This document shows positions 33,093-50,399 of a DNA stretch of 64,000 nucleotides, one piece after another. The DNA comes from Verrucomicrobiia bacterium (lineage in GTDB: Bacteria > Verrucomicrobiota > Verrucomicrobiia > Limisphaerales > JADLHS01). The notes below the pieces were generated by a model that was not told the DNA's origin, searched no databases, and saw nothing but the letters and a program-made list of their open reading frames with translations. Location of the stretch: contig JAHCLO010000013.1 in assembly GCA_026125285.1 (NCBI GenBank), forward strand, positions 62,001 to 126,000. Direction: 5' to 3'. The translations under genes and the position numbers were made by a program. Numbering within the stretch: the stretch's first letter is position 1; the number at the start of each line of letters is the position of its first letter.

Positions 33093-33366
33093 TGTATGAT
33101 CATTTCGCCCGCCAGCCTGGCGGGAAATGGCGATGTTGGGCGTCTGCACCTTGGGTGTCAAAGCATACTGTCCGGTCATACTGTCCGGACGACGATATCG
33201 CCAGTCTTGGTTATCAGGGCAGTACGAAGGCTGGGACTTCTGCGTGCCGCCCCGACCGTTGTCCGGTGCGACCGTAACGCACAGAAGTTCCCGCGTCCCA
33301 CCATTCGATCCTCCACAACGGAGTGGCGACCGATGTCCGCGCTGCCAACCCCGACTGGCAGGATAA
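33093..33366. other. divergent intergenic region rich in short inverted and direct repeats
   Basis: Between the ceramidase-like gene and uvrA. At 33108-33124 there is a perfect 8-bp inverted repeat CCCGCCAG/CTGGCGGG with a one-base centre. At about 33168-33193 a 13-base unit CATACTGTCCGG(T/A) is repeated in tandem and partly self-complementary. No gene is recognised, and no LexA-type box (CTG...CAG or GAAC...GTTC) was seen. Confidence 0.4.
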
Positions 33367-33394
33367 TTGACAACTGCTTCCCCTGCTCTACTTT
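33367..33394 (+). promoter_or_regulatory. candidate promoter of uvrA, near-leaderless
   Basis: A perfect -35 TTGACA, a 16-base spacer, then TACTTT (4/6). The -10 ends only nine bases before the ATG at 33404, so the transcript would be leaderless or almost so, consistent with the absence of a Shine-Dalgarno sequence. Confidence 0.5.
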
Positions 33395-33403
33395 CGGCCC
33401 GCG

Positions 33404-36400
33404 ATGCCAGAATCACGTTCCAACGCCGTCATCCGTCTGCGCGGAGTGCGGCACAACAATCTTAAGAACTTCGATCTCGATCTGCCGCTGCACCGGCTCA
33501 TCGTTATCACGGGCTTGAGCGGTTCCGGTAAAAGTTCGCTGGCTTTCGACACACTCTACGCCGAAGGGCAAAGGCGCTACATCGAGACTTTCTCGCCTTA
33601 CGCGCGGCAGTTCTTCGACCGGATGGACAAACCGCAAGTGGACAGCATTGAAGGCATCCCGCCGGCCATCGCCATTGAACAGCGGAACACCGTCCGCACC
33701 ACCCGCTCGACTGTCGGCACGATGACGGAGATTTGCGATCACATGAAAGTGCTCTGGCCGCACCTGGCGCAACTGCACTGTCGCGGCTGCGGCCAACCCG
33801 TGCGGAAGGACTCACCGCAAAGCGTGTGGGGAACCATCCTGAAATCCGAATTCCGAAATTCGAAATCCGAGCTTCTCATCACCTTCGATGTCCCGCTCTC
33901 GGAAAAACTCCCACTGGCCGAATCACTCGCGCTGGTTGCCAAACAGGGCTACCAGCGCCTGTTGCTGAACGGAAACCTCATCCGCCTCGAGGACGCGCTC
34001 AACCATTCCGCACTCCGCTCCCCGTGCTCCATGCTCGCTGTGGTCCAGGATCGCCTCAAGCTCACACCCGCCGCCCGCCCCCGTTTCGTCGAAGCCTGCG
34101 AACAAGCCTACCACTTCGGCAAAGGCAAGCTGGCGATTTGGGAAATCCATCCGCCTTCCTCCATCCTCCATCCTCGCCTGTTCTCCAACCTTCTGCACTG
34201 CGCGCATTGTAACGTCGAATACCCCGACCCCTCCCCTGCCCTGTTCAGCTTCAACCACCCCGCGGGCGCGTGCCCGGCGTGCAAGGGTTTTGGCCGAACC
34301 ATCACCATTGATTACGACCTCGCGCTTCCCGACCGCTCGCTCACCCTGGCGCAAGGCGCGGTGAAACCGTGGCGCACGGGCTTCAGCGCCGAATGCCAGA
34401 GTGATTTGAGGAAGTTCTGCAAAGCCCGCGAAGTCCCCATGGACGTGCCGTTCCGCCAGCTTTCGGCCGAGCACCAGCGCTGGATCATTGAGGGCGACAA
34501 GGATTACGGCATTGATGAAGAGCACGAATGGCCGCGCGCGTGGTATGGCGTGAAGGGCTACTTCCGCTGGCTGGAATCCAAATCCTACAAAATGCATGTC
34601 CGCGTGTTGCTTTCCCGCTACCGTGCCTACGCCAAATGCCCGGATTGCCAGGGGGCGCGGCTCAAACCGGAAGCGATGCTTTACCTGCTGAGGATGGAGG
34701 AGAGTGGTTTGAACAGGGGACGTGACACCGGCGTGCGTCCACCTTTTTCCCGCCTCACCCTCCCCGACTTCTACGCCCTGCCCGTCCGCGACGCGCTCGC
34801 GCTGATTGACTCCTTGGAACACTCCCGGCTTCGGGTTCGCGGCCCTCGTCAGCAGCCCAGTGACCCCATCACTCACGCGTTGTCCGAAGTCCGTGCCCGC
34901 CTCGGCTACCTCGACGAAGTCGGCCTCGGCTACCTCACGCTCGACCGGCCAACGCGCACGTTGAGCGGCGGCGAAACAGAACGCGTCAATCTCACCACCT
35001 GTCTCGGCACGCGGCTGGTAAACACGCTGTTCGTCCTCGACGAACCCAGCGTCGGCCTGCATCCACGCGACACCGATCGCCTGGTGCGCATCCTCGAGAA
35101 ACTCCGCGACACTGGAAACACCGTCGTCGTCGTCGAACACGAGGCCAGCGTCATCCGCGCGGCGGATCAAATCGTGGACATTGGCCCGGGCCACGGTGCG
35201 ACCGGTGGCGAAGTTGTGTTCCAAGGCCCGTTGTCTGAATTGTTGAAATCGCCGCGCTCCCTCACCGGCCAATACCTAAGCGGACGGCAGCGGATTCAAC
35301 TGCCCAAGCGACGGCCCGTAGCCGACGATCTAAGGAGGCGGAATCGCGCAACAACTCAAAGCGAAATCCGCCTCCTCACGGCGGCGGCTACATTGCGCAT
35401 CGAGAATGCCACCCGCCACAATCTGAACAACGTCTCGGTGGCGATCCCGCTGAACCGCCTCGTTGCGATTACCGGCGTCAGCGGATCGGGCAAATCCACA
35501 CTCGTGCGCGACGTGCTCCTGCCCGCCCTGTCCGAACGGCTGAAGGGCGCTACCGTCACACGCCGTCCGACCGACCTGGAGTCTGACGACAGCTCGACCG
35601 ACGAGAATTCCTCACGCCTCACGCATCACCCATCACGCATTACCGGCTACGAATCCCTCGGCCAGGTCGTCCTCGTGGACCAATCCGCCCTCGGCAAGAC
35701 CCCGCGCTCCAATCCCGCCGTTTACATCGGCGCGTTCGACGACATTCGCGAAGTCTTCGCGCAATCCGAAGTCGCGAAACAACGCGGTCTCAACGCCAGC
35801 GCGTTCAGCTTCAACTCCGCCGCAGGTCAGTGCGAAAAGTGCCGCGGTGCCGGGTTCGAAAAGATTGAGATGCAATTCCTCAGCGACATTTTCATCCGCT
35901 GCCCGGACTGCAATGGCCGTCGCTATCGCCAACACATTCTGGAAGTAAAAATAAGTAGCCAGCGAGGTAACGAGGTGGAAGTCACAAAATCCGTCCCAAA
36001 CCGCCTGCTCACGTCGGCGGCTACGATAGAGTGGAGCATCGGCGACCTGCTCGAAGCCACGGTGGACGAGGTGATTGAGTTTCTTTCCGGCTTCACGGAT
36101 TCCAATTCCGCCCTACGCGCCGTCGCCAGCCTGAAACTCTTGCAGGAAGTCGGCCTCGGATACCTGCGTCTCGGCCAGCCCATCAATACCCTCTCCGGCG
36201 GCGAGAGCCAGCGCCTCAAACTCGTGCGCCATTTGGCCGAGGTAACTCAATGCCCTGTAACAGCGGACGTGGGTCCGCTCACATCAAACAGCCGCCCGAG
36301 TCAGAGCCGCCTCACGTCGGCTGCTACATTGTTCTTGTTCGACGAGCCCACCACTGGCCTGCACTTTGACGACGTGCGCGTGTTGCTGCAGGTCTTCCAG

Positions 36401-39400
36401 CGACTCGTGGATGCCGGCCATTCGGTCATTGTCATCGAACACAACCTTGACGTCATCAAATGCGCCGATTGGGTGATTGATCTCGGCCCGGAAGCCGGCG
36501 ATGGCGGCGGAAAGATTGTCGCGTGCGGCACGCCAGAGGAGGTCGCCGCTTGCCCGGCAAGCCACACGGGCAGCTTCTTGCAAGCCGTATTTCGTGATGA
36601 GGAACACAGGAAGAAGGCGGAAGGAAGGAGACCGCCAACGCGCACAAAACCGATTCCGTCTTCCATTCTTCGTTCGCCGTCCGCCATTGCCATAAGCGGC
36701 GCCCGCGAGCATAACCTCAAGAATCTCTCCCTCGAAGTCCCGCGGGACCGGTTCGTCGTCATCACCGGTGTCAGCGGTTCGGGTAAGAGTACGCTCGCGT
36801 TTGATCTGCTGTTCAACGAGGGCCAGCGGCGGTTCTTGGACTCGATGAACCTTTATGCGCGACAGTTCGTGGAGCAAATGGCGCGACCGGACGTAGATTT
36901 GATCACGGGTATTCCACCCACGGTCAGCATCGAGCAACGCACCACGCGCGGCGGTGGCAAAAGCACGGTGGCGACCGTCACCGAGATTTATCACTTCATT
37001 CGTCTGCTCTTTGCGCGACTCGGCACACAGTACTGTCCCGACTGCCAGTTGCCCGTCGAACCCCAGACGCGCGACGAACTCGCCCGACATCTGCAGGCCG
37101 AACTCAAACGCCGGGGCGACTTGCTGCTGCTCGCGCCCGTCGTGAAGAACCGGAAAGGCTTCCATTCGGACGTCGCGGAGTGGGCGTTCAAGAGTGGCTA
37201 CAAAGAAATCCGCGCGGACGGAAAGATGTACGACACCAGCAAGCCGTTCCGGCTCGATCGGTTCAAGGAACATGATGTTGAGATTGTCGTGGGCGTGGCA
37301 CAGTCAGGCAGGGCGCGCAGTCCTCTGCGCGCCGCCACTGCGACGGGAACCGCCGGCGCGCACCGAGTGACGCGCCCTACCAGCCTCACTGAAATCGTGG
37401 ATACAGCCCTCAAACTCGGCAACGGCACGCTCTACGCCCTCGACCATCGCAGGCAACTCTCCGTCCACTCCACCGAACGCGCCTGCCCTGGCTGCGGCAA
37501 ATCTTTCGCCCCGCTCGATCCCAAGAACTTCTCCTACAACTCCGCGCAGGGCTGGTGTCCCAAGTGCCGCGGCTTCGGCGAGCTGTTCTACCTGCCCGAT
37601 GTCGAACGCGGCGCGAATGCCGATTCAATAGAGGAAAGCTGGTGGGGCTGGGCGCAGGAACGCGAGGTTTGTCCCGAGTGCCACGGCGCCCGGCTGAATC
37701 CCGTGGCTCGGGCAGTGCGGCTAAACGCCGGACACACGCCGCGCCCGTCACCAGCTTCGGCTAAAGGAGTCAGAGCCAGACGCGATGCCTGTCCGACGAT
37801 AAACGCCTTCTCCGCGCTGGACGTCGAGGCGGCGCTTGCGTTTGTCCGCCAATTGAAATTCACCGGACGCGCGGCAGACATCGCCCGCGACATCCTCCCG
37901 GAAATTCGCGAGCGCTTGAAGTTCCTCAACGAAGTCGGCCTCGGCTACCTCCAACTTGGACGCGGCATGCCGACGCTTTCGGGGGGGGAAGCCCAGCGTA
38001 TCCGGCTCGCCGCGCAACTGGGTTCGAACTTGAGCGGCGTGCTGTACGTCCTCGACGAACCAACCATCGGCCTGCACGCGCGCGACAATGAACAATTACT
38101 CGACGTGCTCCAGAAACTCCGCCGTCGCGGCAATTCCGTGGTCGTCGTCGAGCACGATGAGGACACGATGCGCCGCGCGGATCACGTCATTGATCTTGGT
38201 CCGGGCGCGGGTGTGCATGGTGGACAGGTGGTGGCCAGCGGCACATTGGCCGAACTGGCCAAGCATCCTGAATCTGTCACCGGTCAGTGCCTCCGGACCG
38301 AAAAGAAATTTCCGGCGCGCGGGGAACGGCGGGTTTCCGCCGTAGCCGCCGAGGTGAGGAGGCGGAAGGTCACGAGCACAAAACCGGCCGACCACGTCCT
38401 CACGTCGGCGGCTACGCACGGACGGCTCACGCTACGAGGCGCGGCATTGAACAACCTCAAGAATCTCACAGTGACTTTTCCTCTGGGCCGGCTTGTGCTT
38501 GTAACGGGCGTGAGCGGTTCGGGCAAGAGCACGTTGGTCCGGGAGTGTTTGTTGCCGGAATTGCAGGCGGCACTCAAGGCGGGGCGGGCGTCCGCGCGAG
38601 CCGCCGCCTCGAAACCACCCCAAGGCTCGCGCGGACGCTCGCTCCACCTTTCCGGCTTTGAATCCTTGAAGGCAGTTTATGAAGTGGACCAATCGCCCAT
38701 CGGGCGGACGCCACGCTCGATTCCCGCGACCTACGTGGGATTCTTCGACGACATCCGCGCCTTGTTCGCGCAAGTGCCGGAAGCGCGGATGCGCGGTTAC
38801 TCTGCCAGCCGGTTTTCCTTCAACAGCGCGCAAGGCCGTTGTCCGGAATGTGAAGGGGCCGGCCAGATCAAACTGGAGATGAACTTCCTGCCGCCGGCCT
38901 TTGTGCGTTGCGAAACCTGCGAGGGAACGCGGTTCAATCGCGAGACACTCGACATCGCCTACGGCGGGAAGAACATCGCGCAGGTGCTGGACCTTTCCGT
39001 GGAGGAAGCCCTCGCGTTCTTTGCCAGCGTGCCGAAGATCAAACGCGCGCTTGAAGCCTTGCACGACACCGGGCTGGATTATCTCAAGCTCGGTCAACAA
39101 AGCCCGACCCTGAGCGGCGGGGAAGCGCAACGCGTGAAACTCGTCACGCATTTGCTGACCGGATTAAAGCCCGCCCCCGCCGCAAGCCTCACGCCGCACG
39201 CCGCACGCAACACCAATCTCTTCATTCTGGAAGAACCCACCATCGGCCTGCATATCGCCGACGTGCGCCGGCTCGTGGAAGTCTTGCAGCGCCTGGTGGA
39301 CGCCGGCCATTCGGTGATTGTGATCGAGCATAACCTGGATTTGATCGCCGAGGCGGATTGGGTGATTGACCTCGGCCCGGAAGGTGGCGAGGGCGGTGGC

Positions 39401-39493
39401 CGGATGGTCGCCGAGGGCACGCCCGAGCAAATCGCGCGCAACCAACACTCGCACACCGGACGCTTCCTGCGCCGGCTGTTGCACCTTCCATGA
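33404..39493 (+). CDS. uvrA: double-length excinuclease ABC subunit A with in-frame repeat inserts
   Basis: DNA-damage recognition ATPase of nucleotide excision repair. The 2029-residue chain is two fused UvrA units with four ABC ATPase modules: Walker A at residues 37-45, about 691, 1122 and 1702; signatures LSGGETERV, LSGGESQRL, LSGGEAQRI and LSGGEAQRV; and DEPT/EEPT Walker B segments. Several zinc modules are present (CPACKGFG, CEKCRGAG, CPECEGAG). Chlamydial UvrA is likewise tandem-duplicated, at roughly 1,800 residues from memory. The excess length here is partly explained by non-homologous inserts coded by palindromic DNA, in linkers and loops: residues about 639-663, 851-874, 952-975, 1302-1326, 1647-1671 and 1729-1745. 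Other inserts are simple-sequence-like (SEFRNSKSELL, THHPSRITG). The frame is open throughout and all catalytic motifs are kept, so it is probably functional. The stop overlaps the Uma2 gene. Confidence 0.95.
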   Translation: MPESRSNAVIRLRGVRHNNLKNFDLDLPLHRLIVITGLSGSGKSSLAFDTLYAEGQRRYIETFSPYARQFFDRMDKPQVDSIEGIPPAIAIEQRNTVRTTRSTVGTMTEICDHMKVLWPHLAQLHCRGCGQPVRKDSPQSVWGTILKSEFRNSKSELLITFDVPLSEKLPLAESLALVAKQGYQRLLLNGNLIRLEDALNHSALRSPCSMLAVVQDRLKLTPAARPRFVEACEQAYHFGKGKLAIWEIHPPSSILHPRLFSNLLHCAHCNVEYPDPSPALFSFNHPAGACPACKGFGRTITIDYDLALPDRSLTLAQGAVKPWRTGFSAECQSDLRKFCKAREVPMDVPFRQLSAEHQRWIIEGDKDYGIDEEHEWPRAWYGVKGYFRWLESKSYKMHVRVLLSRYRAYAKCPDCQGARLKPEAMLYLLRMEESGLNRGRDTGVRPPFSRLTLPDFYALPVRDALALIDSLEHSRLRVRGPRQQPSDPITHALSEVRARLGYLDEVGLGYLTLDRPTRTLSGGETERVNLTTCLGTRLVNTLFVLDEPSVGLHPRDTDRLVRILEKLRDTGNTVVVVEHEASVIRAADQIVDIGPGHGATGGEVVFQGPLSELLKSPRSLTGQYLSGRQRIQLPKRRPVADDLRRRNRATTQSEIRLLTAAATLRIENATRHNLNNVSVAIPLNRLVAITGVSGSGKSTLVRDVLLPALSERLKGATVTRRPTDLESDDSSTDENSSRLTHHPSRITGYESLGQVVLVDQSALGKTPRSNPAVYIGAFDDIREVFAQSEVAKQRGLNASAFSFNSAAGQCEKCRGAGFEKIEMQFLSDIFIRCPDCNGRRYRQHILEVKISSQRGNEVEVTKSVPNRLLTSAATIEWSIGDLLEATVDEVIEFLSGFTDSNSALRAVASLKLLQEVGLGYLRLGQPINTLSGGESQRLKLVRHLAEVTQCPVTADVGPLTSNSRPSQSRLTSAATLFLFDEPTTGLHFDDVRVLLQVFQRLVDAGHSVIVIEHNLDVIKCADWVIDLGPEAGDGGGKIVACGTPEEVAACPASHTGSFLQAVFRDEEHRKKAEGRRPPTRTKPIPSSILRSPSAIAISGAREHNLKNLSLEVPRDRFVVITGVSGSGKSTLAFDLLFNEGQRRFLDSMNLYARQFVEQMARPDVDLITGIPPTVSIEQRTTRGGGKSTVATVTEIYHFIRLLFARLGTQYCPDCQLPVEPQTRDELARHLQAELKRRGDLLLLAPVVKNRKGFHSDVAEWAFKSGYKEIRADGKMYDTSKPFRLDRFKEHDVEIVVGVAQSGRARSPLRAATATGTAGAHRVTRPTSLTEIVDTALKLGNGTLYALDHRRQLSVHSTERACPGCGKSFAPLDPKNFSYNSAQGWCPKCRGFGELFYLPDVERGANADSIEESWWGWAQEREVCPECHGARLNPVARAVRLNAGHTPRPSPASAKGVRARRDACPTINAFSALDVEAALAFVRQLKFTGRAADIARDILPEIRERLKFLNEVGLGYLQLGRGMPTLSGGEAQRIRLAAQLGSNLSGVLYVLDEPTIGLHARDNEQLLDVLQKLRRRGNSVVVVEHDEDTMRRADHVIDLGPGAGVHGGQVVASGTLAELAKHPESVTGQCLRTEKKFPARGERRVSAVAAEVRRRKVTSTKPADHVLTSAATHGRLTLRGAALNNLKNLTVTFPLGRLVLVTGVSGSGKSTLVRECLLPELQAALKAGRASARAAASKPPQGSRGRSLHLSGFESLKAVYEVDQSPIGRTPRSIPATYVGFFDDIRALFAQVPEARMRGYSASRFSFNSAQGRCPECEGAGQIKLEMNFLPPAFVRCETCEGTRFNRETLDIAYGGKNIAQVLDLSVEEALAFFASVPKIKRALEALHDTGLDYLKLGQQSPTLSGGEAQRVKLVTHLLTGLKPAPAASLTPHAARNTNLFILEEPTIGLHIADVRRLVEVLQRLVDAGHSVIVIEHNLDLIAEADWVIDLGPEGGEGGGRMVAEGTPEQIARNQHSHTGRFLRRLLHLP
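35318..35391 (+). repeat. palindromic repeat family A, copy in uvrA (linker between ATPase modules 1 and 2)
   Basis: Two 24-base arms (35318-35341 and 35368-35391) are 19/24 complementary around a 26-base centre. Arm 1 starts GTAGCCGACG; arm 2 ends GGCGGCGGCTAC and is read as LLTAAAT. The element sits just before LRIENATRHNLNN, where the second ATPase module begins. Confidence 0.8.
35955..36024 (+). repeat. palindromic repeat family A, second copy in uvrA
   Basis: Arms 35955-35978 and 36001-36024 are 17/24 complementary. Arm 2 (CCGCCTGCTCACGTCGGCGG...) is read as LLTSAAT. It replaces the short loop after HILEVK and before IGDLLEATVDE in the UvrA fold. Confidence 0.72.
36257..36327 (+). repeat. 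palindromic repeat family A, third copy in uvrA
   Basis: Arms 36257-36280 and 36304-36327 are 19/24 complementary. Arm 2 is read as RLTSAAT. It sits in the loop between the ABC signature helix (LKLVRHLAE) and the Walker B strand (LFLFDEPTTG). Confidence 0.8.
37307..37381 (+). repeat. repeat family B (reverse orientation) inside uvrA
   Basis: A 75-bp element (25 codons) is bounded by an 11-base terminal inverted repeat with one mismatch (GGCAGGGCGCG / CGCGCCCTACC). Its reverse complement, GGTAGGGCGCGTCACTCGGT..., resembles the core of the repeats at 41403-41525 and 47310-47432 (GGTGGGGCGCGTCACTCCGT...). It codes for the non-conserved insert after EIVVGVAQSG and before TSLTEIVDTALKLG. Confidence 0.7.
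38342..38415 (+). repeat. palindromic repeat family A, fourth copy in uvrA
   Basis: Arms 38342-38365 (GTAGCCGCCGAGGTGAGGAG...) and 38392-38415 are 21/24 complementary, the best pair in this gene. Arm 2 is read as VLTSAAT. It sits in the linker before GRLTLRGAALNNLKN, the start of the fourth ATPase module. Confidence 0.85.
38588..38638 (+). repeat. perfect 15-bp inverted repeat inside uvrA
   Basis: GCGTCCGCGCGAGCC (38588-38602) is exactly complementary to GGCTCGCGCGGACGC (38624-38638) around a 21-base centre. It encodes a low-complexity loop (RASARAAASKPPQGSRG) before LHLSGFESLKAVYEVD. Confidence 0.8.
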
Positions 39494-39972
39494 ACCAGCC
39501 CTACGAAGAAACGTTTGACGGCGTGACCACTCCGCGCCTCGCTCCGGGACCAAGACACGAACTGATTTGCGCCCGTCTCCACGCGATCCTTGGCGCATGC
39601 CTGATCGGGATTCCCAGCACCCGCCTCTTGCCGCCTCGCGACGAGGTTCGCGTGTCTCCGACCACAACATTACGCCCTGATCTTGCGCTCGTCGCTCAAG
39701 CCACCGGCAAGTTGTGGCTCGCTGTCGAAATCATCAGCTCCGACGATCACCGCACCGATACGGTCATCAAAAAGCAGATCTACGAGGATATCAGAATTCC
39801 TCGGTTGTGGATGATTGATCCCCGTTATGACAACCTGGAGGTTTATCAATGCGGGCCCTACGGATTGGCGCTCAAGGCCATCCTTGCGGGGCGCGAGCAG
39901 TTGACCGAGTCTTTGCTCCCGCAGTTGAGCCTGGTGGTGGCGGACTTGTTTGCCGCCGACACGGCCAATTGA
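39490..39972 (+). CDS. Uma2-family (DUF820) PD-(D/E)xK endonuclease-like protein
   Basis: A 160-residue Uma2 fold. The motif series is seen in LRPDLALVAQ (Asp of the active site), then LAVEIISSDD (Glu of the ExK-like position), then DTVIKKQIYEDIRIPRLWMIDP and LEVYQ. Members are predicted nucleases of unknown substrate, abundant in cyanobacteria, Planctomycetes and Verrucomicrobia. Its ATG lies inside the uvrA stop region (ATGA, 39490-39493), so translation is coupled to uvrA. That position suggests, but does not prove, a link to DNA repair. About 160 bases follow before enolase, including an 8-bp inverted repeat (GGGCGCTG/CAGCGCCC, 40000-40037) with no T tract. Confidence 0.85.
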   Translation: MNQPYEETFDGVTTPRLAPGPRHELICARLHAILGACLIGIPSTRLLPPRDEVRVSPTTTLRPDLALVAQATGKLWLAVEIISSDDHRTDTVIKKQIYEDIRIPRLWMIDPRYDNLEVYQCGPYGLALKAILAGREQLTESLLPQLSLVVADLFAADTAN

Positions 39973-40059
39973 ATCTGGCCCGGCTCGATCGCCAATTGCG
40001 GGCGCTGGGCAGGGCCCTCGATTCCAACACAGCGCCCGGCCCCCTGGACGACGGTTTCC

Positions 40060-40087
40060 TTGACTCAACGGAAGTGCTTTCTATCAT
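40060..40087 (+). promoter_or_regulatory. sigma70-type promoter of eno
   Basis: TTGACT (5/6), a 16-base spacer, then TATCAT (5/6), with a predicted leader of about 40 bases before the eno ATG at 40135. Confidence 0.62.
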
Positions 40088-40131
40088 GCGCGTGCCCTCG
40101 GGGCATCTGACATTCCCGAAATTGAAATTGA

Positions 40132-41525
<1,394 letters not shown>

Positions 41526-41600
41526 GGGTTTGCGTTCCAAGCTGGCAGGCGCGGTGCAGGATTTTCACATGGGTTCGTTTGGCAAAAATGCCCTTGGAGA

Positions 41601-42503
41601 TTATGACCGTTCGGCCACCTCCATCGTCAGCGGGGCGGGAATCGCCTCGCCCTGCCGCATTCGCTGCAGCCGTTCCAGTTGGTTCATCGCCCGGAACATT
41701 TGCCGCTCCAGTTTCGTTTCGTAGCGCTGGATTTTCTCCAGCGTCTCCGCCGCGGGCAGCACCGCCGCTGCCTGGCGCGCCTGCTCCTCCTTTGCTTCCC
41801 GCTCCTTGCAATCAGTTTTTGTCCATGAAATTAAGCGCAGTTTCTGGTCGAGGTAAGCCAGGGTCTCCTCCTTCTGTCTGGCGCGCAGGGCCGCGGGCTC
41901 CAGCCCTTCTGGATTCTGCTGCAACTGGGAACGCAGTGTCTCCAGTTCCTTCGTCAGCGTGTTGGGCTTGTCGCCGAAGCGCCGCACGAGCGCTTGGATC
42001 ACGTTCTCCGTCAATTCCCCCTCCCGCTCCACGTCAGACTGAAGGTCTGCCAGCCAGCGCTCAATGATCCCGTTGCCCAAGGCCGAATCCTGCATCAAGG
42101 GAACCGGATCCCCCAGCGCATCCCATTTGCTCCATTGCACGAGGGGATGCGGCGGCCGGTCGCGGTTCCACGCGCCTTCATCCACGCTGAGCGCGATTTC
42201 GCCTGACTCTGCCGTGAGCGCCCGCCGCAAGCGCCAGTGCGCCGTCACGATCTGGTCCACCAGCATCTCCTCCACCGGCCCGACCGGTTGCAGGGATTCC
42301 ACAAACCGCGCGTGCAGGGCGGCGAATTCGCGCGGGTTCTCCCGGATGTGCAAGCCGCGCACGACGACCTCCTGCGAGAGGATGCCATGTTTGACCGCGT
42401 TCATTTTGGCGACCGCCTTGCCGTTGACGGTTCTCGGGCCGGTGGATTTGCCGGCGTTCCGCCGATTGGCGGCCAGTTGTTTCAAGGACATGGTTTTGCG
42501 CAT
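41601..42503 (-). CDS. conserved hypothetical protein with N-terminal NRRNAxKSTGPRT motif
   Basis: 300 residues, highly charged and helical. The N-terminus SLKQLAANRRNAGKSTGPRT followed by NGKAVAKMNAVKHGIL is a pattern I know from many uncharacterised proteins of Acidobacteria, Planctomycetes and Verrucomicrobia, often in accessory regions. No function is established. The rest is predicted helix with long Glu/Gln/Arg-rich stretches (TLEKIQRYETKLERQMFRAM), probably coiled coil. The start is ATG 42503 or Met5. It lies 5 bases downstream of the KTSC gene on the same strand, so they may be cotranscribed. Confidence 0.6.
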   Translation of the reverse strand: MRKTMSLKQLAANRRNAGKSTGPRTVNGKAVAKMNAVKHGILSQEVVVRGLHIRENPREFAALHARFVESLQPVGPVEEMLVDQIVTAHWRLRRALTAESGEIALSVDEGAWNRDRPPHPLVQWSKWDALGDPVPLMQDSALGNGIIERWLADLQSDVEREGELTENVIQALVRRFGDKPNTLTKELETLRSQLQQNPEGLEPAALRARQKEETLAYLDQKLRLISWTKTDCKEREAKEEQARQAAAVLPAAETLEKIQRYETKLERQMFRAMNQLERLQRMRQGEAIPAPLTMEVAERS

Positions 42504-42507
42504 GGGT

Positions 42508-42702
42508 TCAGAGATATCGCCCCCGGATGTTTTGGTTGTAGTACGCGCCCATGGACGCAGCGGCCATCAGGCCCTGGAAGACCCAACGCGGCACACCGGG
42601 ATGCGTATAGACGGTGTCGCGGCTGTGAAACAACACCGCCAGCGTATAGCCGTCGTAGCCGACGGCCCGGATCGCGGATGAGTTGACGGGGATCATGCTC
42701 AT
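42508..42702 (-). CDS. KTSC-domain small protein
   Basis: 64 residues that form a complete KTSC domain: MIPVNSSAIRAVGYDGYTLA, then VLFHSRDTVYTHPGVP, then MAAASMGAYYNQNIRGRYL. The domain is named from its occurrence at the end of some lysyl-tRNA synthetases. Stand-alone copies are common in phages and genomic islands, with unknown role, probably nucleic-acid or protein binding. ATG at 42702; a second Met two codons later is also possible. Confidence 0.82.
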   Translation of the reverse strand: MSMIPVNSSAIRAVGYDGYTLAVLFHSRDTVYTHPGVPRWVFQGLMAAASMGAYYNQNIRGRYL

Positions 42703-42736
42703 GGCGGTGACACTGTAAACGACTCACGAGTTAGTT

Positions 42737-43366
42737 TCATTCCGGGTTGAATTCCGATTTGTTCCGACTTTTTCCGACCGCCCCTCGAAGCGCGATGAAC
42801 CCTCGGCGCCGGGTATCGAAGAGGCGTTTGTAGGCGGCGCGTTGATTCAAGTCATCAAACGCCTTGCACGGATGCCGGTAACCGCCACAGATATTTAGCA
42901 GGGTTGCATCCTTACTGCTCAGTCCGTTTAGTCCCTTCTCATGTGCTGTGTGAACCAGAGCAAGGATGTACGGCAAGACGCCACCGAGCGAGATGGCCTC
43001 GCCGGTGTCTGGCTTGATTTGCGTGAAACTACTGTCGTGGACCCACCCGCAGACAGAGCAGGCGCAGCCTGTGGCACTGGCCATGGCGGCCCCAGCCTCT
43101 TCGACAGCAAAAGCCCGCACCCCACCGATGCTCGCGAGACTGGCAATGATCTGCTGAACCACAGCGGAAGTGTTTTCATCTTCCCCATGCCGGATGGGCA
43201 CGCCGAGGAGGGCACGCACCGAAAGGAGTACCAAATTGCTTTCGCCGCCCTCTGTCTTCCGCTGCTCCGCCGGCGGTTCGGCTGGCGCAGAGGCGGAGGC
43301 TTGCGGGCCGCGCCTGGGGACAGGCGGGCCGAGCAACATCGCTGTTTCAGGTGCGCGTTTCTGCAC
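42737..43366 (-). CDS. hypothetical protein, possibly DNA-island encoded
   Basis: 209 residues with a GTG start at 43366 or ATG at 43339. The first 45 residues are Pro/Ala/Glu-rich and disordered. The remainder looks like a folded helical domain (LVLLSVRALLGVPIRHGEDE, then GEAISLGGVLPYILALVHTA, then KRLFDTRRRGFIAL). Four cysteines occur in the middle and end (CACSVC, NICGGYRHPC), which could form a metal site. No family is recognised. It is 34 bases from the KTSC gene on the same strand. Upstream, bases 43367-43607 contain CTGCAG/GCTGCAAC-type short repeats and no gene. Confidence 0.5.
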   Translation of the reverse strand: MQKRAPETAMLLGPPVPRRGPQASASAPAEPPAEQRKTEGGESNLVLLSVRALLGVPIRHGEDENTSAVVQQIIASLASIGGVRAFAVEEAGAAMASATGCACSVCGWVHDSSFTQIKPDTGEAISLGGVLPYILALVHTAHEKGLNGLSSKDATLLNICGGYRHPCKAFDDLNQRAAYKRLFDTRRRGFIALRGAVGKSRNKSEFNPE

Positions 43367-43607
43367 GCCCCCACTCTACCAAGTCGGGTAGTGACGATTC
43401 TGCGGAATGCATATCATACTGAAGTCAAGCGTGATAGCCGGTTATTGTGATTTATGACATTCTTCTGCAGTGCCGCTGCAACGGTTCTGCAGGACTGTTG
43501 CAGCCGTTTGGCCCGAAAACCACGTTGGGGCGTGTCAATAACAATCTTTAAGTAATCCGCCAAAAACTCTCACTGATGAAGGAAGCAAACCAGCCCGATC
43601 CGTTGTG

Positions 43608-44141
43608 TCAAATGCCGGCGCGCATAAAACGCCCTTCCCAAGCCCGCTTCGTGACTTCCCACCGGCACCGAGACTTGCGCCGCCCCCGCAGCTTACCTTG
43701 CCGGATAGCCTTCACGATGAGCGATGGGTGGCATGGGACCAGGCGCGCGAGTTCCCCCGGCGTTAGGGCCTCGCGATTCGCAGGCCACGAAAAGCGAGCA
43801 CGGTCAAGACGGGCAAAAGGGAGCGCGAACATTCGCGTCCCCGCCAAGCAACGTCGCGCGTAAGTCTTGTGGCTATACGGTACCGCGCGTTTTGCCAGCC
43901 ACGCCACGAAACGATCCACTTCCACCTTGTTGAGTTGGTGGCGCGGTCCATCCGCACGGAGATACCCTGTCTTGATCCAGTTCCGCAGCGGCTGCGTTGA
44001 GACACCTAACATTTTAGCGGTCTGTCGCAGGCTGAAAAAACCCCGCGTGGCCCGGTCCAGCGCGGCACGAATCTCGTCTGACCGGCAGGCCACCTTCCAA
44101 GCGACCGGTCCGCGCTTCCAAGGCAGACGAGGTTTGCCCAT
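43608..44141 (-). CDS. protein with two HTH_17/MerR-like helix-turn-helix motifs
   Basis: 177 residues. The first HTH is at about 34-60 (FFSLRQTAKMLGVSTQPLRN, then WIKTGYLRADGPRHQL), the classical excisionase/MerR-type DNA-binding fold. A second similar segment is at about 126-165 (LTPGELARLVPCHPSLIVKA, then IRQGKLRGRRKSRCRW). Between them is a basic linker. It starts 9 bases after the stop of the restriction-methylation gene on the same strand, so it probably belongs to that transcript and may be its controller or an island excisionase-type factor. The basic C-terminus supports DNA binding. Confidence 0.72.
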   Translation of the reverse strand: MGKPRLPWKRGPVAWKVACRSDEIRAALDRATRGFFSLRQTAKMLGVSTQPLRNWIKTGYLRADGPRHQLNKVEVDRFVAWLAKRAVPYSHKTYARRCLAGTRMFALPFARLDRARFSWPANREALTPGELARLVPCHPSLIVKAIRQGKLRGRRKSRCRWEVTKRAWEGRFMRAGI

Positions 44142-44150
44142 GCTCTGACT

Positions 44151-47147
44151 TCAAATTGTTGGCCGGATACAATCCGTCGTCAGCAACCGCTGTGGTTCGG
44201 GATAACCGGGCGGAACGCCGGGGGCGGTGACGGGTTCGCCGCGCTCGATCTTCGCGGCGACTGCGAGGTTCAGGGCGAGGAGTTGGGCGAGCAAATCCTG
44301 TTTGGCGCTGAAACCGTAGGCGGCGAGGACGGCAGCGTCCAGGGCGGCGTGGGCGTCCCGCAACGGATTCGCGCCGGGTAATTCGAGCGTGCGATAGAGG
44401 GCGCGCAGGCCGCCTTTCAAATTCCGCAACGCCTCGGCGCGCACATGGCGCACTTCCCGCGCGGCGGCGGCCACGGCGTCAATCTTCGCGATTGTAGCAG
44501 CGGACGTGAGTCCGCTCTGATTTTTCGGGGAAGAAGTTTGAGCCGACTCACGTCGGCTGCTACCAAGCTCAAATTGCGGCCACGGGAACGTGTCGAAGAC
44601 GGTGTCGGAAGTGTAGCGAAAATCTGATTTTAACTTGGAACACTTCTCGATGAACCAAGCCCAGTGGGCACTCGATTGAAGCACTCCAAAACTGTAGTCA
44701 TCATCAAAGGCGAAAACAGAAAGCGAGCCGTCGGGATGAACTTCTCGTGAAACGAATGCAAACGTTGGCCGTTTGGTTACGCGAGGGCAAACAATGTAAC
44801 GCGAACGCGAAAGAACCGCAGCCATCGTGCCCGGCATCCAATCGCGAAACTGCCACCACCGTTCCGCCATCCGTGTCCAGCGTGTGCTTTCCTTTCCCGT
44901 TGTGATTTTCTCCTTCTCGGCTTTCGCAAGCACGTCAGGCATCACCTTCGTTTTCAAGATTTCAAATGCCGCCGAGTATTTCGCGGCGTCGAGCATGTTT
45001 CGCTGGCCGAAATCAATTACCCACTGAGTGGGTGTGCCGACCGTAACGAGATCCAGCCCGATCAAATAAGGAAAGAGAACGTCCCGGTGGTCAGGTAACT
45101 TCCGCAACAGGCTGTCAGCTTCCTCGGGGCTTAGCTTGAATCCTTCGTGAACCGGATTCTGCCCTTGGAATACTCGCTTCGGTTCTGCATTTGCGGCTAG
45201 CACGACTGCCCCACCGACATCGGTTTCATCTGAAAGCGCTGCGTTGATAAATTCGCACTCTCGGAAGTCCAACTCGTATTGGGGTGCAGCCGAATTGCTG
45301 GCTTTACGAAGTTTCTTCGCCGTATGTGCTGGCGGCACTTTGAACCAAAGCTTGCGGGCCTTCGGCAACAAAGCGATGTCTTGCGTCTTTATCCAATTTG
45401 CAATCGAGACGTGAACCTTCGCTTCGCCTGACCACGGTTGATTGTCCACGGCTTCCGTAATCGTTCCGTCCTTTACGACGTGGTCGAGCCCGCCGACGCG
45501 AGATTCGTTGTTGCGAATGTTCTGTGTGCCGACGAGCCCAGCACGGCCAGCGACCGGATCGTCAGCCGTGCAAGCGGGCAAATGGTCGGCGGCTTTGCGA
45601 AACCAATACACGCAGAAGTCTGCCATCTTTGGCACGTCGGGAAAAGCAGCGTGAACTTTCCGCACGTATTCGTAGCCGTGTTCCTTCGCGAAGTAGCGTG
45701 AGCCAAGGAACGGCGGGTTGCCGATAATGACATCGGCCTTGGGCCATTGGGCCGGCAGACCTTCGGGCGTGAGCAGCGCGTCGGCGGCGATGAAATTATT
45801 ATCGAGATTGTCGAGCGGCAGCGGTGGTTCGGTGATGTGCAGTTCGTCAATCGCCAGCTTGCGGCCAATCATCATCGTCACCTTGGCGATCTCGACGGCG
45901 AAGGGCAGGATGTCCAGCCCGTAAAAGTTTTGCGCGCTCAGGTAGCTGAAACGAATCTGGTCGGGCGTGGCGTGTTTGGGAAATTCCGTGTCAATGCGCT
46001 CGTAGATGCGCGCCTCCAGCCGTTTCAGCTCGCGATAGGCGATGTAAAGGAAGTTGCCCGAGCCGCAGGCGGGATCGAGCACGCGGAAGGTGTGCATCCG
46101 GTCGCGGAGTTCGCGCAGGCGCTTGAACGTCTTGGCGCTTTCAATCTGCTCCGACCACGGATCGGTGATCGTCGGCTTGACGATCTTCATGATGTCGGAC
46201 GGGTGCGTGAAGTGCGCGCCGAACGCGTGGCGTTCCTCGTCGTCCATCGAATGTTGGAAGAGCGTGCCGAAGATTTCCGGCTGGACCTTGTTCCACTTGA
46301 ACTTTGCCGCTTCGCGCAACAGGACGAGTTCACGGTCCTGAATCTCGATTTGAGCGGGATTGGCGAACAGGCCGCCGTTGAAATAGGGGACTTCCTTGTA
46401 GCGTCCGCCCTTGGCCGCGTGGCGTTGGTTCATGGCGCGGAACAGGCCGCCAAGCAATTCATAGCTGTCTGCCGGAGTGGTGCATTCGTCGAGCAGGTTG
46501 GTGACGAAATGTTTCGGCAGCAGGTCAATGTCCTCGGCAAAGAGGGCCACGAGCATTTGCAGGATGAAACGCTGGGCTTCCGCGCGTTCGACCTGCGGCT
46601 TGCGATCTTTGCGCAACATCCATTTGAAACAATCCGCCAGCTTGTCGGCAGCCTGGGTGGTGACTTCAACGCGGTCGTGATCAAAATGCGGTTTGGGATT
46701 GCCCGGCGCGAGGAATTCGAGCGGTCCCCAGCGCTCGGGCAAATCCTTGAGTGCGAGTGTGTCCTTGGGCGTGTCGAGGTCGGTGTCGAAATCATAGACG
46801 CGGAACTCGTCGAAGTTACAGAGCACGACGTAGCGCGGGCGATTGGGCACGAGGCGCGTCCAGTAGTCGAAAGCCTGGCGATAATGTCTCTGGAGATTCT
46901 CGCCGCGCTTCTTCATTTCGATGAGCACGATGGGTTTCCAGACGTAATCGGCGAACGCCGTACCGCCGCCGTCTTCATCGGCTTTGCGGATGCGGAATTC
47001 GGTGTGCCCGCCGACGTCGAGACAGCCGGGCTGGCCGAAGGCTTGAAAGAGGCGATCCAGGAAGATTTGCGCCTGGCCCTTTTCGTCGCCGGTGATGTGG
47101 TTGGAACACCAACTGATGAATTCGGCGAGTTTTTCGCGGCCCGGCAT
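44151..47147 (-). CDS. MmeI-like type IIG/IIL restriction-methylation enzyme
   Basis: A single-chain R-M enzyme of 998 residues. The N-terminal PD-(D/E)xK nuclease is seen in FADYVWKPIVLIEMKKRG (about 63-81). The adenine methyltransferase has motif I DPACGSGNFLYIAY (about 357) and motif IV NPPFLGSRYF (about 475). GTLFQHSMDDEERHAFGAHF before motif I and NIRNNESRVGGLDHVV after it are as in MmeI relatives. The C-terminal half is the target-recognition region, then a helical tail. ATG 47147 is preferred; a TTG at 47189 would add 14 residues. A palindromic repeat of family A (44494-44563) is inserted in frame near residues 862-884 (SSRRESAQTSS, SGLTSAATI). It would methylate and cut a specific site; activity is unknown. 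Confidence 0.87.
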   Translation of the reverse strand: MPGREKLAEFISWCSNHITGDEKGQAQIFLDRLFQAFGQPGCLDVGGHTEFRIRKADEDGGGTAFADYVWKPIVLIEMKKRGENLQRHYRQAFDYWTRLVPNRPRYVVLCNFDEFRVYDFDTDLDTPKDTLALKDLPERWGPLEFLAPGNPKPHFDHDRVEVTTQAADKLADCFKWMLRKDRKPQVERAEAQRFILQMLVALFAEDIDLLPKHFVTNLLDECTTPADSYELLGGLFRAMNQRHAAKGGRYKEVPYFNGGLFANPAQIEIQDRELVLLREAAKFKWNKVQPEIFGTLFQHSMDDEERHAFGAHFTHPSDIMKIVKPTITDPWSEQIESAKTFKRLRELRDRMHTFRVLDPACGSGNFLYIAYRELKRLEARIYERIDTEFPKHATPDQIRFSYLSAQNFYGLDILPFAVEIAKVTMMIGRKLAIDELHITEPPLPLDNLDNNFIAADALLTPEGLPAQWPKADVIIGNPPFLGSRYFAKEHGYEYVRKVHAAFPDVPKMADFCVYWFRKAADHLPACTADDPVAGRAGLVGTQNIRNNESRVGGLDHVVKDGTITEAVDNQPWSGEAKVHVSIANWIKTQDIALLPKARKLWFKVPPAHTAKKLRKASNSAAPQYELDFRECEFINAALSDETDVGGAVVLAANAEPKRVFQGQNPVHEGFKLSPEEADSLLRKLPDHRDVLFPYLIGLDLVTVGTPTQWVIDFGQRNMLDAAKYSAAFEILKTKVMPDVLAKAEKEKITTGKESTRWTRMAERWWQFRDWMPGTMAAVLSRSRYIVCPRVTKRPTFAFVSREVHPDGSLSVFAFDDDYSFGVLQSSAHWAWFIEKCSKLKSDFRYTSDTVFDTFPWPQFELGSSRRESAQTSSPKNQSGLTSAATIAKIDAVAAAAREVRHVRAEALRNLKGGLRALYRTLELPGANPLRDAHAALDAAVLAAYGFSAKQDLLAQLLALNLAVAAKIERGEPVTAPGVPPGYPEPQRLLTTDCIRPTI
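44494..44563 (-). repeat. palindromic repeat family A inside the restriction-methylation gene
   Basis: Arms 44494-44517 and 44540-44563 are 22/24 complementary around a 22-base centre. In coding orientation the distal arm reads GLTSAATI, the same frame as in the uvrA copies. It lies between the target-recognition region and the C-terminal helical tail. Confidence 0.88.
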
Positions 47148-47223
47148 GGGGAGGTTGTAGCCAAAGCCGGGCGTGGCGGCAATGCGCAAACGCGCTCAAA
47201 CGCGGTCAGTTCCCAGTCGTCCG

Positions 47224-47304
47224 GTGATCGCCACCGCGGACGTGAGTTGGCGGAGGAGGTCCGGGAGCCAACCTCCTTCCGCCGACTCACGGCGGCGGCG
47301 ACAC
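47224..47304. repeat. palindromic repeat, diverged family A copy, upstream of the restriction-methylation gene
   Basis: Arms of about 34 bases (47224-47260 and 47271-47304) fold back on each other with a few gaps. The core GCGGACGTGAGTTGGCGG matches the family A arm. It directly abuts the family B copy. The 378 bases between 47148 and 47525 hold these two repeats and no gene. Confidence 0.7.
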
Positions 47305-47309
47305 TCCTG

Positions 47310-47432
47310 CGCGCTGCCCAAAGCGCGGCGGTAAGTGGTGGGGCGCGTCACTCCGTGCGCGCCGAGGCTCGCAGCGGACTGCGATCCCTACCGGCAGATT
47401 CCAAACCCCGGAAGTCAGGCGACTGGCTTCCG
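47310..47432 (+). repeat. repeat family B, copy 2
   Basis: A gap-free 123-bp match to 41403-41525 with seven mismatches. It includes CGCGCTGCCCAAAGCGCGGC, equivalent to the last enolase codons, although no eno gene is here. The final hairpin retains a GNRA loop (GCGA). Confidence 0.9.
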
Positions 47433-47525
47433 ACGTTATCATTCGGCGTCGTTGACGAAGCAGGGGGGGCAAGTTCACGCCGCGCGGAACAGCGCAAGCA
47501 ACGCAAGCAAGCCCGTCGCCTCACG

Positions 47526-50399
47526 TCACCGCAACATCAACCGATAGAAACGAAGGGATTGGCCCGGAGTGTCGTCGTGGAACCCAGCCGTTCCATCGGC
47601 GCTGATCTCGTTGGTCGCAGTGGTCGTCCAATTCGTCAAATTGGTGCTCACTTGCAGGCAACATTCCTGACCCGAAATACCGCAGGCCAGAATGTCCACG
47701 CCGCCACCTGGCGACGCGCTGGCCTTCGCGGTCAGCCAGTACTCGTACGCGCCGATGTCGGCGGCCGCACCGTACGGGCGAGGAACACCACGTTGATCGG
47801 TGGGCGGGGCAGCAGCGGAATCGCCAGCATCAATCGCGGGACTGCCGGGTAGCAGGGACATTGTGAGTGTCGGACCGCCATTGTTGGCGAGAGGACCCAG
47901 TTTGGGATCGGTGTGGTTGAGACTGCCGAGGTTGGTGAACGTGCAACTGTCATCGGAACTGAGGTTGTGGCCTGCATCCGAGATGAAGCCGGTACTATTG
48001 GTCGGAATGTTGTTCGCAAGCAGCGTATTCTTAAGCACTCCGCCTAGAGTTGCGATGCTACCCAAGGCCAGGCCCTTCGTGCCATCGTCGCCACTCCGGC
48101 CAGGGTGAGCTCCCTCACCTGCCGGACCGCCCAAGCCGCCGGGACCGCCACTGCCAGAGTTAAAAGCCACCGTGCAATTGGTCATGCTTAGCCGGCTGGC
48201 GTCGTCCCAAACGGCGCCGACAGCGGAACCTCCGAAGCCTCCATCGCCGCCTTGTCCACCGTTGTAGAGGGGCGCGCCGCTCGGACCGCCCGGAGCGCCG
48301 CTTCCTCCCTTTCCGCCAAGACAATAGTTCGAAACGATGGTGCAATTGGCCCACGCAACCGCTCCTTCGTTGCCCAGCGCGCTGCCTCGGGCTGAACCCC
48401 CCGCGCCGCCAATTCCACCGGTGCCGCCAGAGATGCCACCACAAAATCCACCTTGTCCACCCTGTCCGCCTTCCGCGATATTTCCGACAACGGCACTGCC
48501 TTCAATTATTAAGACGCCTGCGTTGCAGATAGCTCCTCCGCGGGCTGCGCCTCCGATTCCGCCCGGAACGCCTTGAGGTGTATAATAACCCGCTTCATCC
48601 GGGCCGGCACCTCCGCCAAGTCCGCCCGTGGCGGAATTCTCCACAAACGTGCAGGTACTTGCTTGCAGTGTGCCAGTGCTGTAAACGGCCCCGCCATAAC
48701 CCAACCCGCCACTGGTGCCGGGGTATGGTTCGGGCAGGCCAGTGCTGCCGCCGGCCCCGCCGACGACCGAGTTCCGCCGGAAAGTGCAAGCGAATGCCTT
48801 CAGGTTGCCACTGCTGTAAATCGCGCCGCCGTAAGCGTCCCTTCCAGGTTCCGGAGGAACAACCCCAAACCGGCCTCCACTACCTTGCACGCTGTTTTCG
48901 GAGAACAGACAATCGAACAGGTTCACCTGGCCGCCCTCATTCCAAATCGCAGCTCCGCCATTGGTGCTGAATCCGTTGGCAACGGTCAGGTTCATCAGCG
49001 TGAGGCTCGCGTTGCTATGCACATAAAACGCTCGAACCGTCTCCGCTCCGCTGATCGTCACCTGATGGCCGCCGCCATCCAGCACGCTGTTGTTCGTAAT
49101 CGCAATGGTGTTGGTCAGGGCGATCGTGCCATCGCAGGTGAAGGTCACCTGGTAGGATGCAGCGAGTGCCTCCCGCAGCGATTGCTCGTCACAACTCGTC
49201 ACCAGCACCAGCCCCCATTGAGATGATGAAGTGTCATCCTGGAAAGCCGCAAAGATAACACCGCAATTCACCAGGATGGAGTTTCTGCCGACCACGTAGA
49301 TATCGCGGCCACGACCGGCTCTGCCATGGTTGCCGTTCTCGCCAAGGACACCTACTCCGCCCGCCCCGCCGCTGCCGGGAAAGTTACCTCTGACTGTGCA
49401 GTTGGTCAGCGCCAAACCACCAGAACTAAAGACGCCGCCTCCGTTACCGCCATTTCCGCCATCGCCACCGTCAAGGCTGTCCACACCGCCGTGGCCACCG
49501 TCACCCGCAACGTTGTCGCTGATCGTGGACCTGATCGCCGCAAAAATGCCGCTGTTCCAGATGCCGCCACCGGCGCCACCATGTCCACCTCTCGCTTCCC
49601 GGGGCGTATCGCCGCCGCTACCTGCGACGTTGCCACTGACCATGGAGTGGTCAAGCCAGAGGGTTCCCGCGTTATAGATGCCGCCGCCCTCACCGCCGGC
49701 ACCACTTATCGGGCTGAAGGTCAACGCGCCACTCACGCCGCCATTGCCGGCGGCGTTGCCACTGACGACGCAGTTGCTCAGGTACATCGTTCCAATATTG
49801 TAAATGGCTCCTCCTGATCCGCCGTTTCCGCCAGCGGTGATAACCATATAGACGTCATTCCCAATGCCATGCCCACCCTGTCCAGCGGCATTGGAGATCA
49901 CCCGACAATCGTTCAAGGTCAACGTACCCGCGGTGTAGATCGCCCCGCCCGCCTGGCCTGGCCCACCTGGGGTTCCCTGGCCTTCAACCACTGTGCCGAC
50001 GACGCCATTGGAAGCCTTGCCATCGCGCAGATTCAGCCCGGAAAGGGAGGCGACGACATTGGATTGCACCTTGAGCAGCCGGCTGGCGTGATTGCCACTG
50101 ATCGTCAGATTGCCAGCCTCCGGGCCGATGATGTTCAGACTCTTAACCAACAGCAGTTCGCCACTGGTCAGCGTGATGGTGCCCGTGACACCGAATATCA
50201 GTGTATCCCCCGAAGCAGCGTCGGTGATCATTTGACGCAACGAACCGGGGCCGTTATCGGCCAAGGAAGTCACGACATTCGTGGCGGTCCACGCTTTGAC
50301 TGGCCACAAGCCCAGCAACAAAAGGGCCCACCCTATCTGCAGAAAAGAGGATCCTCCATGCCCGCCAGCATGCGCTCGAGTTTGATTCGTTGTTTTCAT
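47526..50399 (-). CDS. secreted glycine-rich beta-helix protein (choice-of-anchor Q type) with shared tail
   Basis: 957 residues. The signal segment SFLQIGWALLLLGLWPVKAW ends near TAT. It is followed by the CSLREA-like VVTSLADNGPGSLRQMITDA, then polymorphic-outer-membrane-like beta-helix turns (GGAIYNIGTMYLSNCVVSGN and variants) with long Gly-rich loops to about residue 830. The choice-of-anchor Q segment GSPAIDAGD...TDQRGVPRPYG...DIGAYEY follows at about 860-895, then the tail CCLQVSTNLTNWTT...RFYRLMLR. Probably exported to the surface; no catalytic residues seen. It lies 15 bases after the GloVer gene and shares its ribosome-binding leader. Confidence 0.88.
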   Translation of the reverse strand: MKTTNQTRAHAGGHGGSSFLQIGWALLLLGLWPVKAWTATNVVTSLADNGPGSLRQMITDAASGDTLIFGVTGTITLTSGELLLVKSLNIIGPEAGNLTISGNHASRLLKVQSNVVASLSGLNLRDGKASNGVVGTVVEGQGTPGGPGQAGGAIYTAGTLTLNDCRVISNAAGQGGHGIGNDVYMVITAGGNGGSGGAIYNIGTMYLSNCVVSGNAAGNGGVSGALTFSPISGAGGEGGGIYNAGTLWLDHSMVSGNVAGSGGDTPREARGGHGGAGGGIWNSGIFAAIRSTISDNVAGDGGHGGVDSLDGGDGGNGGNGGGVFSSGGLALTNCTVRGNFPGSGGAGGVGVLGENGNHGRAGRGRDIYVVGRNSILVNCGVIFAAFQDDTSSSQWGLVLVTSCDEQSLREALAASYQVTFTCDGTIALTNTIAITNNSVLDGGGHQVTISGAETVRAFYVHSNASLTLMNLTVANGFSTNGGAAIWNEGGQVNLFDCLFSENSVQGSGGRFGVVPPEPGRDAYGGAIYSSGNLKAFACTFRRNSVVGGAGGSTGLPEPYPGTSGGLGYGGAVYSTGTLQASTCTFVENSATGGLGGGAGPDEAGYYTPQGVPGGIGGAARGGAICNAGVLIIEGSAVVGNIAEGGQGGQGGFCGGISGGTGGIGGAGGSARGSALGNEGAVAWANCTIVSNYCLGGKGGSGAPGGPSGAPLYNGGQGGDGGFGGSAVGAVWDDASRLSMTNCTVAFNSGSGGPGGLGGPAGEGAHPGRSGDDGTKGLALGSIATLGGVLKNTLLANNIPTNSTGFISDAGHNLSSDDSCTFTNLGSLNHTDPKLGPLANNGGPTLTMSLLPGSPAIDAGDSAAAPPTDQRGVPRPYGAAADIGAYEYWLTAKASASPGGGVDILACGISGQECCLQVSTNLTNWTTTATNEISADGTAGFHDDTPGQSLRFYRLMLR

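Follow-up and report, generated by a model that had tools for sequence, protein, structure and literature searches.

In-frame REPINs in conserved genes of a Limisphaerales-type genome and a family-specific bias in their reading phase

The palindromic element at positions 44494-44563 of the window, which is the whole 64,000-nucleotide stretch of DNA analysed (contig 5, 62001-126000, of a 7.16-Mb Verrucomicrobial genome of the Limisphaerales type in 79 contigs), is a REPIN, a small bacterial mobile element of a known kind that is present in several hundred copies. It consists of two REP hairpins with GTAG tags, which face each other in inverted orientation across about 22 nt. Overall, the data are best explained by a REPIN with many insertion sites whose survival is filtered by frame, stop codons and peptide tolerance, an explanation that we regard as likely. 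When both REP families of this genome are pooled, phase use is what stop codons and element length allow. Family A, to which the element belongs, is read as LTSAAT in about 78% of the in-gene copies collected. This is due mainly to stops and length, and in part to the alternative readings, which look harder for the protein to tolerate. LTSAAT as such is not favoured everywhere: the second arm of family B also yields this peptide, without any excess.

Element anatomy, REP families and transposases

The two arms of the element (44494-44517 and 44540-44563) are 24 nt long and 22 nt apart, and recomputation confirmed the 22/24 complementarity (92%) of the original prediction. Each arm forms a hairpin behind its tag (GTAG-CA-GCGGAC-GTGA-GTCCGC), and the arms are inverted with the tags pointing outward. 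Predicted folding energies were −8 kcal/mol for single REP units (z about −4) and −23.4 for the long two-unit fold (z −7.1). The assignment to the REPIN class is based on how the elements are built, how numerous they are and how their units pair. A conserved GTAG (or GTGG) tag marks each unit at its outer end, both units are short imperfect palindromes that fold into hairpins, copies are dispersed through the genome in high number (1-4 hits for the control pattern), and inverted pairing of the units predominates, with 125 of 152 sampled elements being inverted dimers. No Rfam match was obtained across 33000-48000 of the window. In the following, F and R stand for the codon positions taken by the first and the last base of an element, respectively, and the LTSAAT reading corresponds to R1.

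44494..44563, family-A REPIN, 70 bp, in frame in an MmeI-like methylase gene, read as GSSRRESAQTSSPKNQSGLTSAAT on the minus strand (F1R1)
44494..44517, plus strand, REP unit 1 (G type), a GTAG tag followed by a hairpin with a 7-bp stem and a GTGA loop
44518..44539, variable REPIN spacer, 22 nt
44540..44563, minus strand, REP unit 2 (C type), a GTAG tag followed by a hairpin with a 7-bp stem and a GTGA loop
47230..47302, family-A REPIN in degenerate form, with 5 and 3 mismatches, just beyond the 5' end of the methylase ORF

Because the methylase gene lies on the minus strand, unit 2 is read as the first arm (GSSRRESA) and unit 1 gives SGLTSAAT.

The genome contains two related REP families, A (GTAGCAGCSGACGTGAGTCSGC) and B (GTAGCCGCCGACGTGAGGAGGC). 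The family-A arm had 147 matches at no more than two mismatches, compared with one in a reversed-pattern control, and arms of the GTAGCSGC type added 145 more. The own-genome sample consisted of 98 stretches around such matches plus the window (968 kb), chosen in listing order and not by phase. Elements were called by an exact mismatch scan, and the phase table was built from the stretches around matches. The scan identified 152 elements, mostly 61-97 bp long; the reversed-sequence control gave no arm at three or fewer mismatches. In the window, family A is represented at 44494 (methylase) and 36257 (uvrA), and family B at 35318, 36003 and 38342 (all uvrA). The copies of the window, treated as a single element in the earlier statement, are of two kinds. 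Intergenic family-B copies (e.g., L047, L098 and L106) are nested in a larger conserved palindrome, CCCCCGAACCCTTCGCTC-REPIN-GGTTCGGGGG; the in-gene family-B copies inspected (e.g., L064, L072, L092 and L108) are devoid of the outer CCCCCGAACCCTTCGCTC/GGTTCGGGGG palindrome.

A RAYT-type gene, which the original prediction suggested looking for elsewhere in the genome, is present, and none is flanked by REPs of family A or B. Eleven Y1 transposase genes were found, four ORFs scoring above the RAYT cut-off (NF047646) others being IS200-like or weaker and one being a RAYT embedded in dnaE; family A or B arms were absent within about 1.5 kb of all of them. Hence, the link between transposase and REPs is one of type only. 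REPs and RAYTs are listed apart in PMC3733652, and judging from these lists flanking REPs are not universal in the class. The palindrome GTRGGACAGGCG was considered as a RAYT partner and discarded, as no close match lies near any RAYT except for hairpins of the related GTGGCACGGGCG type around the one in dnaE. This RAYT is contained in frame in a dnaE ORF (DNA polymerase III alpha, 1531 aa; L040 1-2892, plus strand; contig 37, 19187-22078), in the loop between VLAPDVNESRVTFAP and IRFGLAAIKGVG, where hairpins with GTGG/GTAG tags that belong to a different REP family border it; judged by its sequence, the HUH motif and the Tyr look intact. A same-genus genome (L405) has an in-frame RAYT in the same dnaE loop. 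The divergence between the two RAYTs (pS 0.71) greatly exceeds that of the surrounding dnaE (pS 0.29), which suggests separate insertions. In other members of the family, the dnaE loop is empty or filled with different repeats.

Host genes and turnover of the inserts

Placement in ORFs, assessed with a codon-usage gene model trained on the sampled stretches, assigned 59 of the 152 elements of the 968-kb sample (about 39%) to genes. Among 40 host ORFs scanned, 39 had a Pfam match at 1e-4. The hosts include AlaRS, LeuRS, PheT (phenylalanyl-tRNA synthetase), MutS (two REPINs), UvrB, IspG, a class-III aminotransferase, a carbamoyltransferase and several DNA methylases. In a number of cases the insert sits within one continuous Pfam domain match, which shows that the host genes are real and that the inserts interrupt them in frame. 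The hosts and their insertions in the window are:

44151..47189, minus strand, methylase host, MmeI-like restriction-modification enzyme (PF20473, PF20464, PF20465, PF20466)
33404..39493, plus strand, uvrA host, long double UvrA of 2029 aa, carrying in frame three REPINs plus a REP arm that stands alone
35318..35391, family-B REPIN in uvrA, 74 bp, VADDLRRR...RLLTAAAT (F0R1)
36003..36024, minus strand, lone family-B REP arm in uvrA, RLLTSAAT
36257..36327, family-A REPIN in uvrA, 71 bp, VTADVGPL...SRLTSAAT (F0R1)
38342..38415, family-B REPIN in uvrA, 74 bp, VAAEVRRR...HVLTSAAT (F0R1)

In the methylase, the insert occupies approximately residues 876-898, directly after the target-recognition domain, and the orthologue in a same-genus genome (G001) has the same insert in the same phase. 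At a second locus (L128 5707-5777), the flanks on both sides of the REPIN are nearly identical to those of 44494-44563; the frame corresponding to the methylase is broken there by a stop, which suggests a decayed paralogue. The uvrA gene at 33404-39493 contains more in-frame low-complexity inserts (e.g., LTHHPSRITG, PRPSPASAKGVRARRDACPT and SLTPHAARN), in which it is unlike a normal UvrA.

The corresponding loops of orthologues in related genomes hold other REPIN copies, other phases, decayed remnants or unrelated repeats. For instance, the carbamoyltransferase loop reads PPRHLGGY here and LTSAAT in genome G007. Some orthologous loops have no element or other repeats, in relatives too distant to define exact junctions and net insertion size, and several inserts apparently replace part of a variable loop when divergent relatives are compared. 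The repeats TGVAPV...RRDACPT, NPKSEIRNPKSE and PLTPSLSLSDGER were found in frame in orthologous loops of relatives at L203, L211, L213, L216, L219, L226, L178 and others. As the same loops accommodate other repeat families, several unrelated repeats share insertion-tolerant loops. The shared methylase insert together with the varied orthologous loops indicates that the inserts are of old date and inherited, that they drift and that they can be replaced, and this speaks against a function that the host requires.

Reading phase and the cause of its bias

As originally noted, the second arm is stop-free in all three frames (EPTHVGCY, SRLTSAA and ADSRRLL), and the five coding copies of the window use a single phase, giving LTAAAT, LTSAAT, LTSAAT and LTSAAT in uvrA and LTSAAT in the methylase. 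The chance probability of about 1% assigned to this agreement was wrong, because the GTAG tag shuts one phase and the length sets the phase of the second arm. The first arm contains TAG/TGA in one frame, F2 places the TAG in frame, and none of the in-gene dimers uses F2. Length ties R to F, which leaves a dimer some two pairs of phases on each strand instead of three free choices. Calculated from the elements' own open frames, the probability of LTSAAT is 0.50 for each of the three uvrA dimers and 0.67 for the methylase copy; multiplied over the four dimers this gives 0.083, and counting the lone arm at 1/3 lowers it to 0.028. Nor are the copies independent, since four of the five lie in uvrA, where a REPIN-like peptide is present at sites 1, 3 and 4 in other genera as well. 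Tabulating phase across the own-genome sample also overturned the claim that the element is always read as LTSAAT: R1 was used by 26 of 52 dimers and, after near-duplicate genes had been dropped, by 23 of 47 non-redundant dimers of both families, compared with 22.0 expected (P=0.44). These expected counts derive from each element's own stop-free frames, a null that rests on present-day sequences already edited by selection in the used frame.

Family A alone showed a slight R1 excess in its own genome, which was then tested on new data comprising 60 stretches from relatives, 72 loci obtained by scanning a public collection of genomes and 30 order-wide loci. Same-site copies were collapsed before the phases were counted by family. 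R1 was used in 16/23 cases in the own genome, 15/16 in relatives and 20/26 order-wide. This corresponds to 35 of 42 out of sample (25.8 expected, P=0.0003) and to 51 of 65 overall (37.5 expected); with independent coding evidence required in both flanks, the count was 45 of 57 (32.3 expected, P=5e-5). In family B, R1 showed no excess (8/24, 10.7 expected), and R2 (PPPHVGGY) was used in 14/24. The R1 reading of family A was reached via F1 at element lengths L=1 mod 3 (37/44) and via F0 at L=2 mod 3 (14/17). Since it is reached from two left-end phases, the constraint acts on the reading of the second arm and not on that of the first. Family-A dimers with L=1 mod 3 made up 44 of 65 in genes versus 18 of 52 among copies away from genes (P=4e-4). 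The enrichment is as frame selection predicts, net insertions that keep the frame being selected; their size most often appears to differ by −1 or +2 from that of the visible element.

Other readings of the second arm and one junction codon are under-used. Readings with Cys were rarer among used than among open but unused frames in family A (8/65 versus 26/103, P=0.049) and in family B (0/24 versus 12/59, P=0.015). At the F1 junction, a T that makes TGT (Cys) occurred in 1 of 41 cases, whereas 13 were expected from a model of target-site choice, in which extragenic flanks of 2, 4, 6 or 8 bases are weighted by real codon contexts. R2 is THVGCY, with Cys, in family A and is rare; in family B it is HVGGY, with Gly instead, and common. 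The Cys effect is modest in family A and cannot by itself account for the shortage of R0 (ADSRRLL), which is Cys-free and was used 8 times instead of the 17.6 expected. Selection against poorly tolerated peptides fits the family-A excess best.

It is unlikely that there is no phase preference at all, with the five copies of the window reflecting chance plus stop-codon and length constraints. The pooled own-genome count and family B agree with this explanation, but the family-A excess replicates in relatives and survives the strict coding criteria. The original prediction had named target-site or codon-phase preference and selection for a tolerated peptide as possible causes; the former is not supported, and the latter gained indirect support from the under-use of readings with Cys. 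If target sequences of the transposase occurred in one codon phase, the phase would be fixed at insertion, and the extragenic flanks do show a base preference, with pyrimidines at −1 and −2 and A nearly absent at −1. However, the weights derived from these flanks are nearly flat across phases and predict only 35.6-38.5 R1 readings among the 65, compared with the 51 seen (P about 1e-4 or less), and the arrival at LTSAAT from F1 or F0 depending on length is not predicted by targeting of the left end. We therefore consider codon-aligned target choice improbable. A positively useful peptide, in which LTSAAT would be retained for its function as a tag or linker, could be suspected from the persistence of in-frame inserts between species (the methylase in G001 and the uvrA sites in other genera) and from hosts that are often DNA- or RNA-acting proteins. 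Against this stand the orthologous loops with unrelated repeats, other phases and decayed remnants, the predominance of PPPHVGGY in family B and the diversity of host functions, which make it very improbable.

Filtering of many insertions by frame, stops and peptide tolerance would proceed as follows. Mobilisation in trans is presumably the work of a RAYT, a tyrosine transposase (Y1/HUH) associated with REPs, and the REPIN would insert at many places in the genome. A copy inside a gene would survive only if its net length can be divided by three, if the used phase avoids the TAG of the GTAG tag as well as spacer stops, and if the 20-30 extra residues do no harm and fall in a loop that tolerates them. 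The first two conditions alone would leave LTSAAT in about half of the copies. In family A, purifying selection at the peptide level is the best explanation of the remaining excess, with protein fitness as the probable cause, as suggested by the avoidance of the THVGCY and ADSRRLL readings of the second arm and of the TGT junction codon. Family A might even be adapted to genes, its arm, lengths and spacer being shaped so that coding insertions most often give a short, polar, Cys-free peptide (SSxRESA...SRLTSAAT), with coding DNA as a main habitat, although we give this idea a rather low probability.

Relation to known intragenic repeats

GTAG REPs within genes are already published, double insertions in Verrucomicrobial uvrA among them. 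Di Nocera and colleagues describe REPs of the GTAG type that lie in ORFs; the verrucomicrobium Opitutus terrae has the largest number of these, and both of its uvrA genes carry double REP insertions (PMC3733652). The elements analysed here resemble the GTAG REPs and REPINs (BIMEs) with RAYTs described in PMC3733652 and PMC3116915 in the GTAG tag, the short hairpins, the inverted pairs, a copy number above 100 per genome, the presence of RAYT genes and insertions in ORFs including uvrA; with the O. terrae families described there, the likeness is one of features. They differ in the share of sampled copies in ORFs (about 39%), the absence of a REP-flanked RAYT and the family-specific phase bias. 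In-frame palindromes were known earlier from Rickettsia (reviewed in PMC2229807). The Rickettsia palindromic elements (RPE-1 and others; PMC2229807, PMC3733652) are likewise palindromic repeats in frame in conserved genes and apparently tolerated, but as described in these sources they are 105-146 bp long or carry a CGTC tag, whereas the Verrucomicrobial elements measure about 60-97 bp and carry GTAG. ORF-compatible MITEs (PMC2229807) are also non-autonomous repeats whose open frames are fused to host ORFs while stop-rich relatives remain intergenic; the unit here is instead a REP pair, for which terminal TA and target-site duplication are not established.

Relative to the intragenic REPs described in PMC3733652, the present work adds the order-wide phase table, its null, and a bias that is family-specific and unexplained by target sites. 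It also corrects a statistical trap, as a call of phase preference requires both arms and the length to be considered jointly. The result is a large collection, spanning the order, of REPINs that are inserted in frame in conserved genes, with the phase bias measured and stops and target sites controlled. With this set one can ask how peptides encoded by transposons are tolerated by proteins, a question for which the palindromes of Rickettsia have so far been the main material.
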